Shown here: positions 19,818-48,507 of the stretch, in pieces
Numbering within the stretch: the first letter of the stretch is position 1
How the letters are laid out: each line of letters opens with the position of its first letter
Source: Radiobacillus kanasensis
Lineage (GTDB): Bacteria > Bacillota > Bacilli > Bacillales > Amphibacillaceae
Direction: 5' to 3'
DNA: 64,000 nucleotides
NCBI RefSeq assembly: GCF_021049245.1
Contig: NZ_CP088021.1
Location: forward strand, 1-64,000
The notes under the pieces: model-generated
The model's database searches: none
What the model was told of the DNA's origin: nothing
The model's input: only the letters and a program-made list of their open reading frames with translations
Position numbers and translations under genes: made by a program

Positions 19818-20405
19818 TTGATATAGACTCCGACTTAACGAAATAAGGACTCGTATATACTTTATCAAGTTAACTGCTAATGCGGCGCTGCGGAAAAATA
19901 CTCGCTTTCCGTGGGGAACGCCTCAGCCAGGCTACTTCAGCGAGTAATCTACTTCGCTGCCTTGCACCGAGGAACTTTACCACGAAGCATAACTAGAAGA
20001 CGCAGGTGCATCCCTGCGGGGTCTTCAACTGTTCCCTTCCCACAGGACAAGGAATACTCCGGAAGCTTAACCCCGCACGCAGAAAATTGGGGTTTATTTT
20101 CAAGGAGTCTCGCATTTTTCCGCAGCTTAGTACGGAGTTCTTTTCAAGGCAGAGGTGTTTCTTGGTCTACTTATTTTATTGGTGTTAATAACCCACTATA
20201 TTAGAAATACCTATAAGCGTAGGCAGAATACGTAGACTCCAGCGGGAATAGCGCGAGCCGAAGATCCCGCAGGAAGTGGTGTTCTTCCGAGGAAGCTGAG
20301 GCCGTGCCCGCGGAAAGCGAAGTATTCTGCCGGAGCGTGGCATTTAGGCTAAACTTGACTTTCTAGTAATTATCCAAAAGATCATTATGTCGCATTTTAT
20401 ATCAA
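19818..20405. repeat. 588-bp composite repeat with terminal inverted repeats (unit 1)
   Basis: The left end TTGATATAGACTCCGAC and the right end GTCGCATTTTATATCAA are imperfect inverted repeats (17 of 22 positions agree). Inside are two hairpin modules. Module 19887-20126 has perfect 13-bp outer arms (GCTGCGGAAAAAT / ATTTTTCCGCAGC). Module 20216-20336 has outer arms GGCAGAATAC / GTATTCTGCC and the GCCCGCGGAAAGC core common to all copies. No coding capacity beyond short chance ORFs. It fills the gap between rsmA and yabG. The size, ends and modules match the units at 28160 and 46290 once their IS110 insertions are subtracted. Confidence 0.75.
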
Positions 20406-27432: not shown

Positions 27433-28074
27433 TTGGCAGTCACGTTAAAGGTAGATCATAGAGAGGATTTAAAACAGTCCAACACGAGAAAAATTAGAAA
27501 TAGTGGGTTGATTCCAGCAGTTGTGTATGGAAAGGATAAAGATCCTGTAACGGTTTCTGTTAATAGTTTGGAACTGTTAAAAACGGTAAGAGACGAAGGT
27601 AGAAATGCTATTATCTCTTTAAATGTAAATGGTAGTACGGTAGATGTTATGCTACATGACTATCAAGTAGAACCAATTAAAGGAGAACTTCTACACGCAG
27701 ACTTCTATGTGGTAAATATGTCACAAGAAATGGACGTAGAAGTTGCCATTCATCTAACTGGTGAATCTATTGGAGTGAAAGATGGTGGTGTCCTGCAGCA
27801 GCCTCTTTATAACTTAGCTGTACGAGCTAAGCCAGCGAATATCCCTGAAGAAATTAGTGTGGATGTAACCGACTTAGCGGTTGGGGATAGTATAACAGTA
27901 GGCGATTTGAAGTCTGGTCGTGGTTATGAAATTCAAGAGGATGATAATACGACTGTTGTAACAATCTTGCCACCTGATAGTGGTGCAGAGCAAGATGAAG
28001 TAGAGGCTCCGGAAGAGATTGCTGATGCAGATTCAGAAGCAAGTAATGAGGAAGAAGAAGAAAATAAGGAATAA
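27433..28074 (+). CDS. ctc: Ribosomal protein bL25 / general stress protein Ctc
   Basis: 213 residues. An N-terminal bL25 5S-rRNA-binding domain (about 1-90) is followed by the beta-rich TL5/CTC-specific domain (LTGESIGVKDGGVLQQPLYNLAV) and an acidic tail rich in Glu. Ctc binds 5S rRNA in the ribosome and is stress-induced through sigma-B in B. subtilis. I place the start at TTG 27433, six bases after GGAGGGTG. No clear sigma-B promoter was found in the 80 bases after prs. Confidence 0.9.
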   Translation: MAVTLKVDHREDLKQSNTRKIRNSGLIPAVVYGKDKDPVTVSVNSLELLKTVRDEGRNAIISLNVNGSTVDVMLHDYQVEPIKGELLHADFYVVNMSQEMDVEVAIHLTGESIGVKDGGVLQQPLYNLAVRAKPANIPEEISVDVTDLAVGDSITVGDLKSGRGYEIQEDDNTTVVTILPPDSGAEQDEVEAPEEIADADSEASNEEEEENKE

Positions 28075-28082
28075 CGATAGAA

Positions 28083-28115
28083 CGGGAGCGCGATCTAAGA
28101 GATCGTGCTCTTTTC
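28083..28115 (+). terminator. ctc terminator
   Basis: GAGCGCGATCT and AGATCGTGCTC pair across a three-base loop and are followed by TTTTCTG. Confidence 0.85.
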
Positions 28116-28394
28116 TGCTTGCTTGAGAATTTATGCTCTATTCGCATAGTGTGTTGCTATTTAAATAAATTGCGACGTAACTCTAATTAAATAATTTATT
28201 GAAAGAATGATAAGTGAACCTTGAGACCGCGCTCCGGCAGAATACTCCGCTTTCCGCGGGCACGGCCTCAATCTCCTCAGAAGAAACCCACTTCTTGCGG
28301 GGCTTTCACCTCGTGCTGTTCCCGCAGTCATTCATGTATCGCGAAAACAGCTATACACCACAGAGAATGAAAATAGTTATTGTGTGGCTATACT

Positions 28395-28535
28395 GATGCT
28401 ACGGCTGGATGAGGAAGGTCGAGACTCCTTGGTGCGTGAGAGCCCTACCCGCAGTCTGACTCCTTCGACCACGGTGCATCACAGACTGTTGCTCCTTTTA
28501 AGGGAAGCACTCATGGTAGATTAACCCTATTCTGG
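28395..28535 (+). ncRNA. Predicted IS110 bridge RNA, copy A
   Basis: The outer stem GGTCGA (28417-28422) / TCGACC (28465-28470) encloses GACTCCT (28423-28429) on the 5' side and CCCGCAG (28448-28454) on the 3' side. These match the two halves of the insertion target GACTC-CT-GCGGG (first in sense, second as its reverse complement), both including the core dinucleotide. The second loop surrounds a hairpin (28491-28508). Its 3' side TCATGGTAG (28511-28519) repeats the element's right end plus core, and its 5' side CATCACAGACT (28477-28487) agrees in 8 of 11 positions with the reverse complement of core plus left end. Copy B differs by one base, turning a G.U pair of the hairpin into G-C. RNA ends are estimates. 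Confidence 0.8.
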
Positions 28536-28583
28536 TTGTTGCGCCAGCCTCCATTATTATTTGCCGTAGAAAGGATGTTTTCA

Positions 28584-29807
28584 ATGGATGTAATCATTGA
28601 GAATGCTTGTGGTATGGATGTCCACAAGGATACCATTACCGCTTGTGCCATTACAACAGAAGGAAAGGAGATTGAAACTTTTTCAACTAAAACCATATAT
28701 CTAATTGAGTTGGTGGACTGGGTGAAGAAACATAAGTGTACCCATGTGGCAATGGAAAGTACAAGTGTCTACTGGAAACCCATTGTCAATCTACTAGAAG
28801 CAGAAGATATTGAATATCTAGTTGTGAATGCTCAACACATTAAGGCTGTCCCCGGGCGTAAAACGGATGTGAAAGATGCCGAATGGATAGCCAAATTACT
28901 TCGTCACGGTTTACTTAAAGCTAGTTTTATTCCTGATCGAAACCAGCGAGAATTACGTGAACTTGTTCGTTATCGTCGAAGTATTATTGAAGAGCGTGCC
29001 AGACAATATAATCGGATTCAAAAAGTGTTAGAAGGAGCTAATATCAAACTTGGTTCTGTTGTTTCTGACATTATGGGAGTTTCTGCTCGTGATATGCTTC
29101 GATCCATATCCGAAGGAAATGATGATCTCGAAGAGTTAACAACCTTTGCGAGAGGAGTAATGAAGAAGAAAAAGGATGAATTGAAACTCGCACTTCAAGG
29201 GTATGTTCAAGAACACCAACGGTTCATGATAAAAACGATTCTAGATCATATCGATTTCCTGACGGATCAAATCGATAAACTAGATAAAGAGATAGCGAAA
29301 AGGATGGAAGACTCTCAAGAAGATATAGACCGTTTAGATTCCATTCCTGGTATTGGGAGAAAAATGGCGGAACAAATGCTTGCAGAGCTTGGTACAAATA
29401 TAAAGGAGCAATTTCCTACTGCACCTCAAATGTGTTCATGGGCTGGATTAGTTCCTGGAAATAACCAAAGTGCTGGAAAACGTAAATCATCTAAAACGTT
29501 GAATGGAAACAAGTATCTTAAATCAGCACTGATTGAAGCAGCTCATTCTGTTCGAGGATCCAAAAACTACCTTGGTGCACTTTACCGGCGAACAGCTTCA
29601 CGTAAAGGTAAAAAGCGTGCAGGAATCGTTGTAGCTCATGCGATATTACGAATCTCCTATTATCTCTTAACACGAAAAGAAATGTATGTAGATTTAGGAG
29701 AAGATTACTTCGACAAACAAAGACAACAATCCGTTGTTAAGCATTCACTACGAAGATTAGAGAGTTTAGGTTACACAGTGACAATTGTGGAACCAAAAGT
29801 GTCTTAA
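28584..29807 (+). CDS. IS110-family transposase (RNA-guided recombinase), copy A
   Basis: 407 residues. The N-terminal RuvC-like DEDD domain has Asp12 (GMDVHKD), Glu58 (VAMESTSVYW), Asp95 and Asp98 (KTDVKDAEW). A long coiled region follows, then the C-terminal Transposase_20 part with the helix-hairpin-helix-like SIPGIGRKMAEQMLAELG, the GLVPGNNQSAGKRKSS segment expected to hold the catalytic serine, and GNKYLKSALIEAA. ATG 28584 is chosen, with AGAAAGGA eight bases upstream; an in-frame TTG 48 bases earlier is rejected. All predicted catalytic residues are present, so it is likely active. Members of this family use a bridge RNA encoded in the element. Confidence 0.93.
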   Translation: MDVIIENACGMDVHKDTITACAITTEGKEIETFSTKTIYLIELVDWVKKHKCTHVAMESTSVYWKPIVNLLEAEDIEYLVVNAQHIKAVPGRKTDVKDAEWIAKLLRHGLLKASFIPDRNQRELRELVRYRRSIIEERARQYNRIQKVLEGANIKLGSVVSDIMGVSARDMLRSISEGNDDLEELTTFARGVMKKKKDELKLALQGYVQEHQRFMIKTILDHIDFLTDQIDKLDKEIAKRMEDSQEDIDRLDSIPGIGRKMAEQMLAELGTNIKEQFPTAPQMCSWAGLVPGNNQSAGKRKSSKTLNGNKYLKSALIEAAHSVRGSKNYLGALYRRTASRKGKKRAGIVVAHAILRISYYLLTRKEMYVDLGEDYFDKQRQQSVVKHSLRRLESLGYTVTIVEPKVS

Positions 29808-30154
29808 AATTATTCTCCAACTTCATTAGATCTTAGAATGTGGCGCTCTCCTCAAAAAAACGAATGAGCTGCGTCTACCTTAGTATTGCCATTTTTCCAT
29901 ATATTAGAACCTTATTTTCATGGTAGGAGTCTCCGTATTCTGCCTACGCTAAGTTACTATATTCTAATTAAGTAAAATTTGTAGCCGGAAAAAAACAGAT
30001 GATTAAATACTTGAAATAATTGGGGAAACCTTGTACAAAATCATTAGTCTGATAACATGAATCTCTAACTTAATAAGATTTCAATTTACTTATAATTATT
30101 AAAGAATAATTTTATACATTCGGAAAACTATTCTATGTCAGCTACTTACGGCAT

Positions 30155-30295
30155 GTTGATTGTAGTGGAGGGCTAGTCGACTCCTGTGGAAACAGCACGA
30201 GGTGAAGACCCCACAGTGAGCGATTTTTGCGAGCGAGGAGGCTGAGACCGTGCCCACGGAAAGCGACTGCCCGCAGCGGAAATCAACATCGCGTG
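30155..30295. repeat. Intact type II hairpin module of unit 2
   Basis: Outer arms around GTTGATT and AATCAAC enclose GACTCCTGTGGAAACAG, GAAGACCCCAC, a GAGCGA/GCGAGC pair and GCCCACGGAAAGCGAC. It corresponds to the module split by IS110 copy B, but here the target reads GACTCCTGTGG instead of GACTCCTGCGG. Confidence 0.65.
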
Positions 30296-30544
30296 TATAT
30301 CGAGCAGTTATTAAACGGATGGTTTTTCGTTTAACTTTTTATGTCGCATTTTATATCAACTTTCTATAACTACTAGTAAGACTTGCCTCACCCTAGCAGG
30401 ATAGGTCAATTATTAATTTACGAAGACTAAAGGATGTTTTTAGTCTGTAATCCATCATTGCGGGTGCTTTGGCATTTATCTTTTTTTTATAGCATCGTTA
30501 CGTTACAATAAAAGCAACGACAATCGGAAGAAAGACGTGAAATC

Positions 30545-31102
30545 ATGAAATGTATAGTAGGGCTCGGAAATCCGGGAAAACGATTTGCTGATACACGCCA
30601 TAACATAGGATTTATGGTCGTGGATGAGCTTATAAAACGACATCAATTATCATTGGATAAAAAGAAATTCCATGGGCAATATACGACCCATGTCATAGAA
30701 GGGGAAAAAATCATCTTCCTCGAACCATTAACATATATGAACCTATCGGGCGAATCTGTCCGTCCATTAATCGACTTTTATAACATCGAACCGGAAGATA
30801 TAGTGGTTATCTATGATGATTTAGATTTACCGAATGGCAAGATTCGTTTAAGACAAAAAGGCAGCCATGGAGGTCATAATGGCATTCGCTCTATTATTGA
30901 CCATTTAGGGACAAAAGAATTCAAGCGTATTCGTGTTGGGATTGGAAGACCAACTACACCTCAACCGGTTCCTAATTTTGTTACAGAACCTTTTTCAAAA
31001 GAGGAATGGGTGCTGGCAAGCGAGGGCATCGAAAAAGCAGCAGATGCTTGTGAAGCATGGTTTACCAAACCCTTTGAACAAGTCATGAATGAATTTAATT
31101 AA
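30545..31102 (+). CDS. pth: Peptidyl-tRNA hydrolase
   Basis: 185 residues. It recycles peptidyl-tRNAs that fall off the ribosome. It begins [22 protein letters not shown], containing the catalytic His of the RHNIG motif, with Asn in PLTYMNLSG and the [23 protein letters not shown] segment all in place. Length is normal. The gene is called spoVC in B. subtilis because an allele blocks coat formation. It precedes fin and mfd, as there. Confidence 0.96.
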
Positions 31103-46324: not shown

Positions 46325-46455
46325 ATGCCGGCGCTCCGGCAGAATACTCCGCTTTCCGCGGGCACGGCCTCAGCTTCCTCGGAAGAACCCCACTTCCTGC
46401 GGGATCTTCGGCTCGCGCTGTTCCCGCAGGAGTCTCCGCATTCTGCCTACGCTGG
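46325..46455. repeat. Intact type I hairpin module with an unoccupied IS110 target
   Basis: The outer arms GGCAGAATACTCCG and CGCATTCTGCC enclose GCTTTCCGCGGGCACGGCC, paired GGAAG/CTTCC segments and TTCCCGCAGGAGTC. The last part (46421-46434) is the uninterrupted version of the site occupied by IS110 copy A in unit 2. Confidence 0.7.
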
Positions 46456-46809
46456 TAGGAACTTTCTACAAATGACAGTGGCTTTATCAATACTTAATAT
46501 GTCGTTATGACCTGAAGAACGACTCTTTGAACGTGCATTTAACTTGATTCACTTTTCTTAGTATTGATAAGTTCTTTTGTCTCATTCTTTTATCTTGATT
46601 TTACTTCATTTCAGTGATAAATCTCTTTTGAAAATTTTCATCTAGTTCATTTATTATGGTATGTTGATTGGAGTGGAGGGTAATCGACTCCTACCATGAA
46701 AATAAAGTTCTAATATATGGAAAAATGGCAATACTAAGGTAGACGCAGCTCATTCATTTTTTTGAGGAGAGCGCCATATTCTAAGATCTAATGAAGTTGG
46801 AGAATAATT

Positions 46810-48033
46810 TTAAGACACTTTTGGTTCCACAATTGTCACTGTGTAACCTAAACTCTCTAATCTTCGTAGTGAATGCCTAACAACGGATTGTTGTCTTTGT
46901 TTGTCGAAGTAATCTTCTCCTAAATCTACATACATTTCTTTTCGTGTTAAGAGATAATAGGAGATTCGTAATATCGCATGAGCTACAACGATTCCTGCAC
47001 GCTTTTTACCTTTACGTGAAGCTGTTCGCCGGTAAAGTGCACCAAGGTAGTTTTTGGATCCTCGAACAGAATGAGCTGCTTCAATCAGTGCTGATTTAAG
47101 ATACTTGTTTCCATTCAACGTTTTAGATGATTTACGTTTTCCAGCACTTTGGTTATTTCCAGGAACTAATCCAGCCCATGAACACATTTGAGGTGCAGTA
47201 GGAAATTGCTCCTTTATATTTGTACCAAGCTCTGCAAGCATTTGTTCCGCCATTTTTCTCCCAATACCAGGAATGGAATCTAAACGGTCTATATCTTCTT
47301 GAGAGTCTTCCATCCTTTTCGCTATCTCTTTATCTAGTTTATCGATTTGATCCGTCAGGAAATCGATATGATCTAGAATCGTTTTTATCATGAACCGTTG
47401 GTGTTCTTGAACATACCCTTGAAGTGCGAGTTTCAATTCATCCTTTTTCTTCTTCATTACTCCTCTCGCAAAGGTTGTTAACTCTTCGAGATCATCATTT
47501 CCTTCGGATATGGATCGAAGCATATCACGAGCAGAAACTCCCATAATGTCAGAAACAACAGAACCAAGTTTGATATTAGCTCCTTCTAACACTTTTTGAA
47601 TCCGATTATATTGTCTGGCACGCTCTTCAATAATACTTCGACGATAACGAACAAGTTCACGTAATTCTCGCTGGTTTCGATCAGGAATAAAACTAGCTTT
47701 AAGTAAACCGTGACGAAGTAATTTGGCTATCCATTCGGCATCTTTCACCTCCGTTTTACGCCCGGGGACAGCCTTAATGTGTTGAGCATTCACAACTAGA
47801 TATTCAATATCTTCTGCTTCTAGTAGATTGACAATAGGTTTCCAGTAGACACTTGTACTTTCCATTGCCACATGGGTACACTTATGTTTCTTCACCCAGT
47901 CCACCAACTCAATTAGATATATGGTTTTAGTTGAAAAAGTTTCAATCTCCTTTCCTTCTGTTGTAATGGCACAAGCGGTAATGGTATCCTTGTGGACATC
48001 CATACCACAAGCATTCTCAATGATTACATCCAT
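46810..48033 (-). CDS. IS110-family transposase, copy B (catalytic Asp95 changed to Glu)
   Basis: 407 residues, start at 48033 as for copy A. It differs from copy A in two residues: Asp95 is Glu (KTEVKDAEW; codon at 47749-47751) and one Lys near the C-terminus is Arg. Asp95 is the first Asp of the KTDxxDA pair in the DEDD active site, so this copy is probably weakened or inactive, though Glu can sometimes keep metal binding. The reading frame is intact, indicating recent origin. It could still be moved by copy A in trans. Confidence 0.92.
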   Translation of the reverse strand: MDVIIENACGMDVHKDTITACAITTEGKEIETFSTKTIYLIELVDWVKKHKCTHVAMESTSVYWKPIVNLLEAEDIEYLVVNAQHIKAVPGRKTEVKDAEWIAKLLRHGLLKASFIPDRNQRELRELVRYRRSIIEERARQYNRIQKVLEGANIKLGSVVSDIMGVSARDMLRSISEGNDDLEELTTFARGVMKKKKDELKLALQGYVQEHQRFMIKTILDHIDFLTDQIDKLDKEIAKRMEDSQEDIDRLDSIPGIGRKMAEQMLAELGTNIKEQFPTAPQMCSWAGLVPGNNQSAGKRKSSKTLNGNKYLKSALIEAAHSVRGSKNYLGALYRRTASRKGKKRAGIVVAHAILRISYYLLTRKEMYVDLGEDYFDKQRQQSVVRHSLRRLESLGYTVTIVEPKVS

Positions 48034-48081
48034 TGAAAACATCCTTTCTACGGCAAATAATAATGGAGGCTGGCGCAACAA

Positions 48082-48222
48082 CCAGAATAGGGTTAATCTA
48101 CCATGAGTGCTTCCCTTAAAGGGAGCAACAGTCTGTGATGCACCGTGGTCGAAGGAGTCAGACTGCGGGTAGGGCTCTCACGCACCAAGGAGTCTCGACC
48201 TTCCTCATCCAGCCGTAGCATC
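48082..48222 (-). ncRNA. Predicted IS110 bridge RNA, copy B
   Basis: Identical to the copy A RNA except for one base at 48121, which changes a G.U to a G-C pair in the hairpin of the second loop. The guide segments GACTCCT, CCCGCAG and TCATGGTAG (48098-48106 for the last) are unchanged. RNA ends are estimates. Confidence 0.78.
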
Positions 48223-48507
48223 AGTATAGCCACACAATAACTATTTTCATTCTCTGTGGTGTATAGCTGTTTTCGCGATACATGAATGACTGCGGGAAAA
48301 GCACGAGTTGAAGACCCCGCAAAAAAGCGAACTTTGCTTTTTGAGGAGGCTGAAACCGTGCCCGCGGAAAGCGATTACCCGCAACGGAAATCAGCATCGC
48401 ACACACACCGAGCAGTCACTAAACCGATGGTTTTGTAGTAACTTTTATTATTTCGTTACGTCGCATTTTATATATTTTCGCAATAATATTTTCAAAAGTA
48501 CCCCAAA

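Follow-up and report, generated by a model that had tools for sequence, protein, structure and literature searches.

The window, by which we mean the whole stretch of 64,000 nucleotides analysed here, from Radiobacillus kanasensis, carries two copies of an IS110-family insertion sequence. The features on which the argument rests are listed by position in the window, with the strand in brackets.

28321..28327 (+): left target half CCCGC and core AG, identical across the outer junctions
28328..29926 (+): IS110-family element, copy 1, 1,599 bp including the right-hand AG core; ends set by 10 copies at 9 places and by a tandem junction
28337..28355 (no strand): left-end hairpin region, weak in the window copy, with arms that change together in many homologues
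28367..28375 (+): left copy of a subterminal inverted repeat, ATGAAAATA, 39 nt inside the left end
28389..28394 (+): putative -10 box TATACT of an internal promoter, from a consensus scan whose count is not above that expected
28395..28574 (+): predicted bridge RNA, the conserved region as defined by a 51-sequence alignment, pair counts and a covariance model
28399..28405 (+): 5' arm of the closing helix, CTACGGC, pairing with 28563-28569 (93.0% of cells paired, three pairs with double changes)
28417..28421 (+): 5' arm of the target-loop stem, GGTCG (helix 2 of the pair counts)
28421..28429 (+): target guide 1 in the 5' arm; GAGACTCCT complements the core and right flank of the top strand
28448..28454 (+): target guide 2, 3' arm, CCCGCAG, equal to the left flank and core and thus pairing with the bottom strand
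28458..28464 (+): second GACTCCT, almost invariant and taken to be structural, not a guide
28466..28470 (+): 3' arm of the target-loop stem, CGACC (helix 2 of the pair counts)
28473..28478 (+): 5' arm of the donor-loop stem, GGTGCA, pairing with 28540-28545 (helix 4 of the pair counts)
28477..28487 (+): claimed left-end donor guide, CATCACAGACT, unsupported
28511..28519 (+): donor guide, 3' arm, TCATGGTAG, equal to the right end and core
28563..28569 (+): 3' arm of the closing helix, adjoining the ribosome-binding site
28570..28575 (+): ribosome-binding site AAAGGA, from sequence
28584..29807 (+): transposase gene, 407 aa, with the DEDD_Tnp_IS110 and Transposase_20 domains
29913..29921 (-): right copy of the subterminal inverted repeat, 3 nt plus the core from the right end
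29927..29931 (+): right target half GAGTC, identical across the outer junctions
46691..48289 (-): element copy 2, 1,599 bp, with 7 differences from copy 1

The R. kanasensis genome holds 10 full copies of the element at 9 places, two copies in the window and eight elsewhere. At every outer junction CCCGC-AG precedes the element and GAGTC follows it, so that the insertion target GACTC-CT-GCGGG proposed in the initial annotation was right. The outer flanks of the window copy L001 and the chromosomal copy L002 are near-identical over at least 60-70 bases on each side; these two may therefore be one insertion duplicated between two contigs, and two of the nine places may not be independent. Two differing right-hand contexts occur in the genome, and the target sequence is common to them only up to GAGTC. 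Uninterrupted target sites, CCCGCAGGAGTC, number 31 in the same genome, compared with none for a reversed-pattern control, and one of them (46423-46434) lies inside a window copy of the repeat that copy 1 has as its target. Copies of this repeat are located at 20205-20340, 28227-28327 and 46331-46464.

Two copies lie head to tail with a single AG between them (L006/L008, contig C1, ~1606603-1609827), and their junction reads TTTTCATGGT-AG-TCATTCATG, that is, right end, core and left end, as expected of the joined ends in a circle. This tandem is either an insertion at an element end or a circle junction that has been retained. In Alicyclobacillus dauci, copies L139 and L141 are also arranged head to tail, the second without its outermost left end.

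The transposase starts at the ATG at 28584; a 423-aa reading frame begins upstream, with a TTG that lies within the RNA. Both IS110 (DEDD) domains are found in the 407-aa protein, which aligns with the IS621 transposase, and its catalytic residues D12, E58, D95, D98 and S296 are invariant in the window and 20 relatives. A tree of 23 transposases gives no reliable placement to IS621, to an IS1111-like row or to a Citrobacter row, because these sit on long branches. Scanning for promoters and terminators returned five promoter-like sites against 5.1 expected and one terminator-like site against 1.4 expected.

Relatives were taken as the best 80 of 528 loci from one scan of named genomes; their transposases are 67-91% identical to that of the window element, and they come from Bacillus, Neobacillus, Oceanobacillus, Lysinibacillus, Paenibacillus, Brevibacillus and other genera. 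The same RNA is found in 78 of the 80, in 73 by pattern, in three by eye (L052, L086 and L121), in L110 by the covariance model and in L072 in part; in the other two (L064 and L066) the sequence ends 28 bases upstream of the gene. The alignment comprises 51 sequences (the window and 50 of the 80), retained after 11 of 61 extracted sequences, including L063 and L113 with altered guides, had been removed by hand, and it has a mean column identity of 85%. Conservation begins, as the initial annotation had it, at 28395, and it continues to about 28574 instead of ending at 28535.

The consensus fold of 32 pairs is kept in 99.3% of cells, and six pairs show double changes compared with 0.5 in shuffles, so that covariance folding of the homologues, suggested earlier as a check, came out in favour of a structured RNA in the non-coding stretch that precedes the transposase gene. 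When the fold was slid by 1-3 columns, at most 47.1% of cells were paired, although this control favours a fold derived from the same alignment. The stem predicted to close the first loop, GGTCG with CGACC, is kept in 99.2% of cells across the 51 sequences. Of the seven differences between the two window copies, one is in the RNA, a T/C at 28496, which by the fold turns a U.G into a C-G pair, in line with the pairing-preserving change noted previously. The helix 28399-28405/28563-28569 and helix 1 of the consensus fold both covary and have bases in common; they may therefore be mutually exclusive, alternative states, and, since the closing helix ends next to the ribosome-binding site of the transposase gene, one might speculate about a switch there.

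G.U cells outnumber A.C cells by 26 to 2 outside helix 6, favouring the plus strand, and only in a plus-strand RNA do both guides end 3' with the core, as those of IS621 do. Folding of the single sequence was no better than in shuffles (z -0.37), whichever strand was taken, and no Rfam family matched 27500-31000 at up to E = 1. The covariance model finds the RNA in all eight main-clade loci that it was run on and that lay outside its training set (weakly, at 21.7 bits, in L110), and also matches in A. dauci (115 bits) and A. fastidiosus (29 bits). Among 25 sources overall, it gave no hit with E < 0.16 in IS621, Caballeronia, Streptomyces, ISArsp3, Citrobacter, Enterococcus, L021, the group-2 loci or the IS1111-like locus.

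All four strings earlier singled out as guides are present, GAGACTCCT at 28421-28429, CCCGCAG at 28448-28454, CATCACAGACT at 28477-28487 and TCATGGTAG at 28511-28519. Whether they act as guides can be judged from elements with other guides at other targets. We parsed 81 elements (the window and 80 loci), of which 65 have both flanks and both target arms, 57 of them distinct; two rows were parsed by hand, one of them a duplicate. The 3' target arm agrees at all five positions with the bases immediately left of the core in 55 of the 57 distinct rows, the exceptions being L091 and L096 with four of five. Among rows with an uncommon guide, that is, other than CCGTT, 17 of 18 are exact, and these comprise ten kinds of uncommon guide. 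Homologues with different guides thus sit at correspondingly different targets, which is what the initial annotation had set as its own test. Two of the 16 incomplete rows disagree, L063, in which most of the 3' guide is deleted, and L086 (4/5). Ten of 16 further loci could be parsed and scored, for the 3' arm only; all ten have five of five, although three are places already counted.

Permutation over the 57 rows, in which kinship remains, gave 283 matches for the 3' arm against 228.9 +/- 4.4 (maximum of 10,000 shuffles, 252). For the 5' arm, with the better of two registers and with kinship likewise remaining, there were 188 matches against 151.6 +/- 4.8 (maximum of 10,000 shuffles, 174); here five bases match in three rows, four in 21, three in 24, two in eight and one in one, so that 33 of 57 rows have three or fewer. 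Further, a scan free of prior assignment compared variable RNA columns with variable junction bases in 44 rows. Its top five left-junction pairs are columns 28448-28452 with LF-5 to LF-1, agreeing in 42-44 of 44 rows. The expected pair on the right, 28426 with RF+1, is tenth in the right-junction list, below six non-guide pairs; such pairs also score because the elements are related. The target loop covaries with both halves of the target, very strongly on the left and, by permutation only, moderately on the right.

The proposal that the first-loop guides match the two target halves therefore holds strongly for CCCGCAG and more loosely, though above all 10,000 shuffles, for the 5' arm. As to GACTCCT, its occurrence at 28423-28429 is supported as a guide and that at 28458-28464 is not: we read the latter as structural because it is near-constant in homologues with quite different right flanks.

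In the donor loop, the 3' arm varies together with the element's right end, giving 265 matches against 240.2 +/- 2.7 and a maximum of 252 in shuffles (41 distinct rows; kinship remains), as was expected from its proposed match to the right end plus core. The right-end varieties that it follows are CATGGT, CATGGG, CAGGGT and CATAGT, and the top three right-junction pairs of the column-junction scan (44 rows) are 28514, 28515 and 28517 with RE-4, RE-3 and RE-1, agreeing in 43-44 of 44 rows. Three of the four guide arms covary in this way, one of them moderately. The fourth had been claimed from an 8 of 11 agreement between CATCACAGACT and the core plus left end. We rejected this guide: 13.8% of shuffled queries reach the same match in the window, the 5' donor arm has 94 matches to the left end against 92.7 +/- 1.5 (41 distinct rows; 3,014 of 10,000 shuffles as high), and seven offsets gave no signal. 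A short pairing between the 5' donor arm and the left end may exist, since the left end varies little. The TC that follows the 3' target guide equals the first two bases of the left end of the window element, most relatives having CC; in PMC11208158 (cited here in part) the 'handshake' guides are placed at that position.

The order of the guides is where the window clade departs from IS621. In its target loop, the arm complementary to the right side lies 5' and the left-flank arm 3'. As a control, we analysed IS621 in E. coli plasmid records, where left flanks ATCAGGC or ATCGGGT followed by CT match ATCGGGCCT, and further 3' comes GCGTAG, which is complementary to the right side, as published; in single IS621 copies, the short right arm is as weakly significant as in the elements studied here. 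Relative to the gene, IS621 has its 5' arm matching the bottom strand and its 3' arm the top strand, and here this is reversed. The donor arm that could be verified, that for the right end, is also on the side opposite to that printed for IS621. Read in the RNA's own frame, however, the target is GACTC-CT-GCGGG, with core CT and guide order as in IS621. The earlier suggestion of the same mechanism as IS621 is thus supported by guide-target covariation as far as a bridge RNA is concerned, and not for the IS621 layout.

Compared in the parts of the two reports drawn on here (Durrant 2024, PMC11208160; Hiraizumi 2024, PMC11208158), IS621 is alike in its two transposase domains with catalytic D, E, D, D and S, in its RNA upstream of the gene, in having target and donor loops whose guides include the core, and in the CT core in the RNA frame. 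It is unlike in its guide order relative to the gene, in its transposase of 326 aa (407 aa here) and in that the window clade has a subterminal inverted repeat and no demonstrable left donor arm; its RNA also goes undetected by the covariance model of the window clade. The ISEc21 seekRNA, as given in the part of PMC11187229 used here, is likewise encoded upstream of the transposase gene and matches both target strands, but there the bottom-strand match comes before the top-strand match, the reverse of the window clade.

The subterminal repeat ATGAAAATA was equalled in length by 3 of 500 shuffles. Its parse succeeded in 72 of 81 elements, with the six bases before the eighth fixed by the search pattern. 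The eighth base agrees between the two ends in all 31 distinct main-clade pairs (T-T 29, C-C 1 and A-A 1; null 27.2; 5 of 5,000), and the bases after it show no agreement. A search for the longest repeat in 14 elements, 13 of which could be parsed, covered 12 with long transposases, four of these in the main clade. In 11 of the 12, the repeat sits at a left offset of 32-39 and a right offset of 3-7, with different letters, and it is not always significant individually (in Caballeronia, 5 bp, reached by 391 of 500 shuffles). In the E. raffinosus element and the IS621 control the longest shared repeat is elsewhere. Between the terminus and the repeat, a hairpin occurs in homologues L043-L122, whose arms among 79 parsed elements are AAGCGC/GCGCTT in 18, CAGCGC/GCGCTG in 14, TAGCGC/GCGCTA in four and CCCC/GGGG in five; by the same parse, 19 of the 79 have two or fewer outer pairs. 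This hairpin might serve as a site for a protein or belong to a longer transcript.

Outside the main clade, the left-flank arm is at a comparable place in six of seven rows (Caballeronia, Streptomyces and Alicyclobacillus; one tied), with shuffled-query p values of 0.04-0.61; most matches of the right-flank arm do not reach significance. The highest-scoring right-flank match in Caballeronia (score 7, p 0.037) is located 3' to the left-flank arm, which speaks against the reversed order, whereas the match at the expected place scores 5. We accordingly regard the reversed order as firm in the main clade alone, with transposase identity of 67-91%. Left-flank matches in the group-2 relatives and the Citrobacter element were seen by eye only.

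Two further observations concern these relatives. Loci L025, L027, L037 and L038, in other genomes and at 35-39% identity, have a different upstream RNA in which, by eye, CGTGTTTAT or CGTATATAT follows the left flank; they insert in apparently the same repeat family at another position. On the A. fastidiosus plasmid, the left flanks of L136 and L138 differ (CTCATAAG and CACATAAG) and their guides differ by one base (TGCATAAG and TACATAAG).

Taken together, we consider it very probable that this IS110 insertion sequence, with its long transposase, is guided by a bridge RNA and that its RNA-transposase cassette stands inverted with respect to the recombination sites. In the mechanism we infer, the RNA encoded directly upstream of the transposase gene would be transcribed, would fold into two loops and would be bound by the protein; the 3' arm of the second loop would read the right end of the element, and the transposase would recombine the target with the circular element at the two-base core. 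An RNA-transposase cassette inverted between the recombination sites appears to be the simplest account of the guide order, because in the RNA frame the target order and the CT core are those of IS621; the inversion would then have been an evolutionary event.

One could instead try to retain the canonical IS621 order, with CCCGCAG at 28448-28454 as the 5' guide and the second GACTCCT at 28458-28464 as the 3' guide, so that nothing would be reversed. The window does have both strings in this order, and they fit the target found there; the second GACTCCT scores 7, against 9 for the first. Yet its first six bases, GACTCC, are near-constant in relatives with the right flanks TTNAA, CTTAA, TAAGA and CACAA, and fit, with at least four of five, only the window element, L044 and L045 of 57 rows; moreover, the three bases between the strings are too few for two arms of one loop. 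Contradicted by the right flanks of the homologues, this arrangement was rejected, and we give it hardly any credence. Nor is it at all likely that the flank matches are a by-product, arising where protein-DNA recognition homes the element to a repeat or where insertions are inherited, with guides and flanks held in common by descent. The window targets do lie in a repeat, relatives share guides, and the shuffles retain kinship. Against this, ten kinds of uncommon guide, spread over 18 rows in different genera, change jointly with the flank, and 17 of these rows match exactly; the two right-hand contexts in the element's own genome are alike only up to GAGTC; and the column-junction scan places the diagonals of the left-flank and right-end guides at the top.

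The most substantial challenge to an inverted IS110 cassette is that the element belongs with the IS1111 group and has a relocated RNA, a reading we hold to be possible but improbable. An IS1111-like element from Klebsiella, Enterobacter and E. coli plasmids, whose ends could not be set cleanly, was left out as a control, and the guide order of IS1111 is taken here from PMC11187229. In the cited part of that paper, the top-strand complement leads in IS1111 seekRNAs, and the order is the reverse in the IS110 type, represented by ISEc21. By that order the window clade resembles the IS1111 seekRNAs of ISEc11, ISPa11 and ISKpn4, the top-strand complement coming before the bottom-strand match, and it has in common with them subterminal repeats and a right extension of 3 bp (3 nt from the right core here). 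It differs in that their RNA is downstream of the transposase gene whereas here it is upstream, and in that their repeats are usually 11-13 bp with 7/3-bp extensions, others being described as 'not present or short and imperfect'; the repeat here is 7-9 bp, and its left extension measures 30-41 nt rather than 7 bp. By the ranges given in PMC11208160 (again in part), 7-17 bp for IS1111 and 2-3 bp for IS110, the length alone would just place it with IS1111. The 407-aa transposase, on the other hand, is within the 395-455 aa of the IS110 subgroup and unlike the 330-350 aa of IS1111 in PMC11187229, and the tree places neither IS621 nor the IS1111-like row reliably.

With the inverted IS110 cassette as our preferred reading, a broader proposal can be made tentatively, and we would not put it above a conjecture: the long-transposase IS110 subgroup as a whole might represent a third architecture, with an inverted cassette and a guide order independent of the position of the RNA gene, in which the right end would be read by the RNA and the left end mainly by the subterminal repeat and the covarying terminal hairpin.

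That IS110 elements use bridge RNAs is established; Durrant et al. (PMC11208160, in the part cited) predicted one in 85.7% of IS110s, mostly at the left end. The reversed order in a clade with an upstream RNA is not described in the titles and abstract openings searched, a set with most subscription papers and all bioRxiv preprints outside it. What appears to be new is therefore the combination, in one clade, of an upstream RNA with the IS1111 guide order, although the six examples drawn by Durrant et al. may include it. In the cited part of PMC11187229, guide order is presented as a difference between IS1111 and IS110, the mechanics of which may differ, with the IS110 side drawn from one tested element, ISEc21. 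A clade spread across many Bacillales genera that unites upstream RNA, IS1111 order and a subterminal repeat breaks this pairing of order with position, and suggests one chemistry with swapped ends. For such elements, assuming the IS621 order when predicting targets or reprogramming would assign the guides to the wrong target halves.
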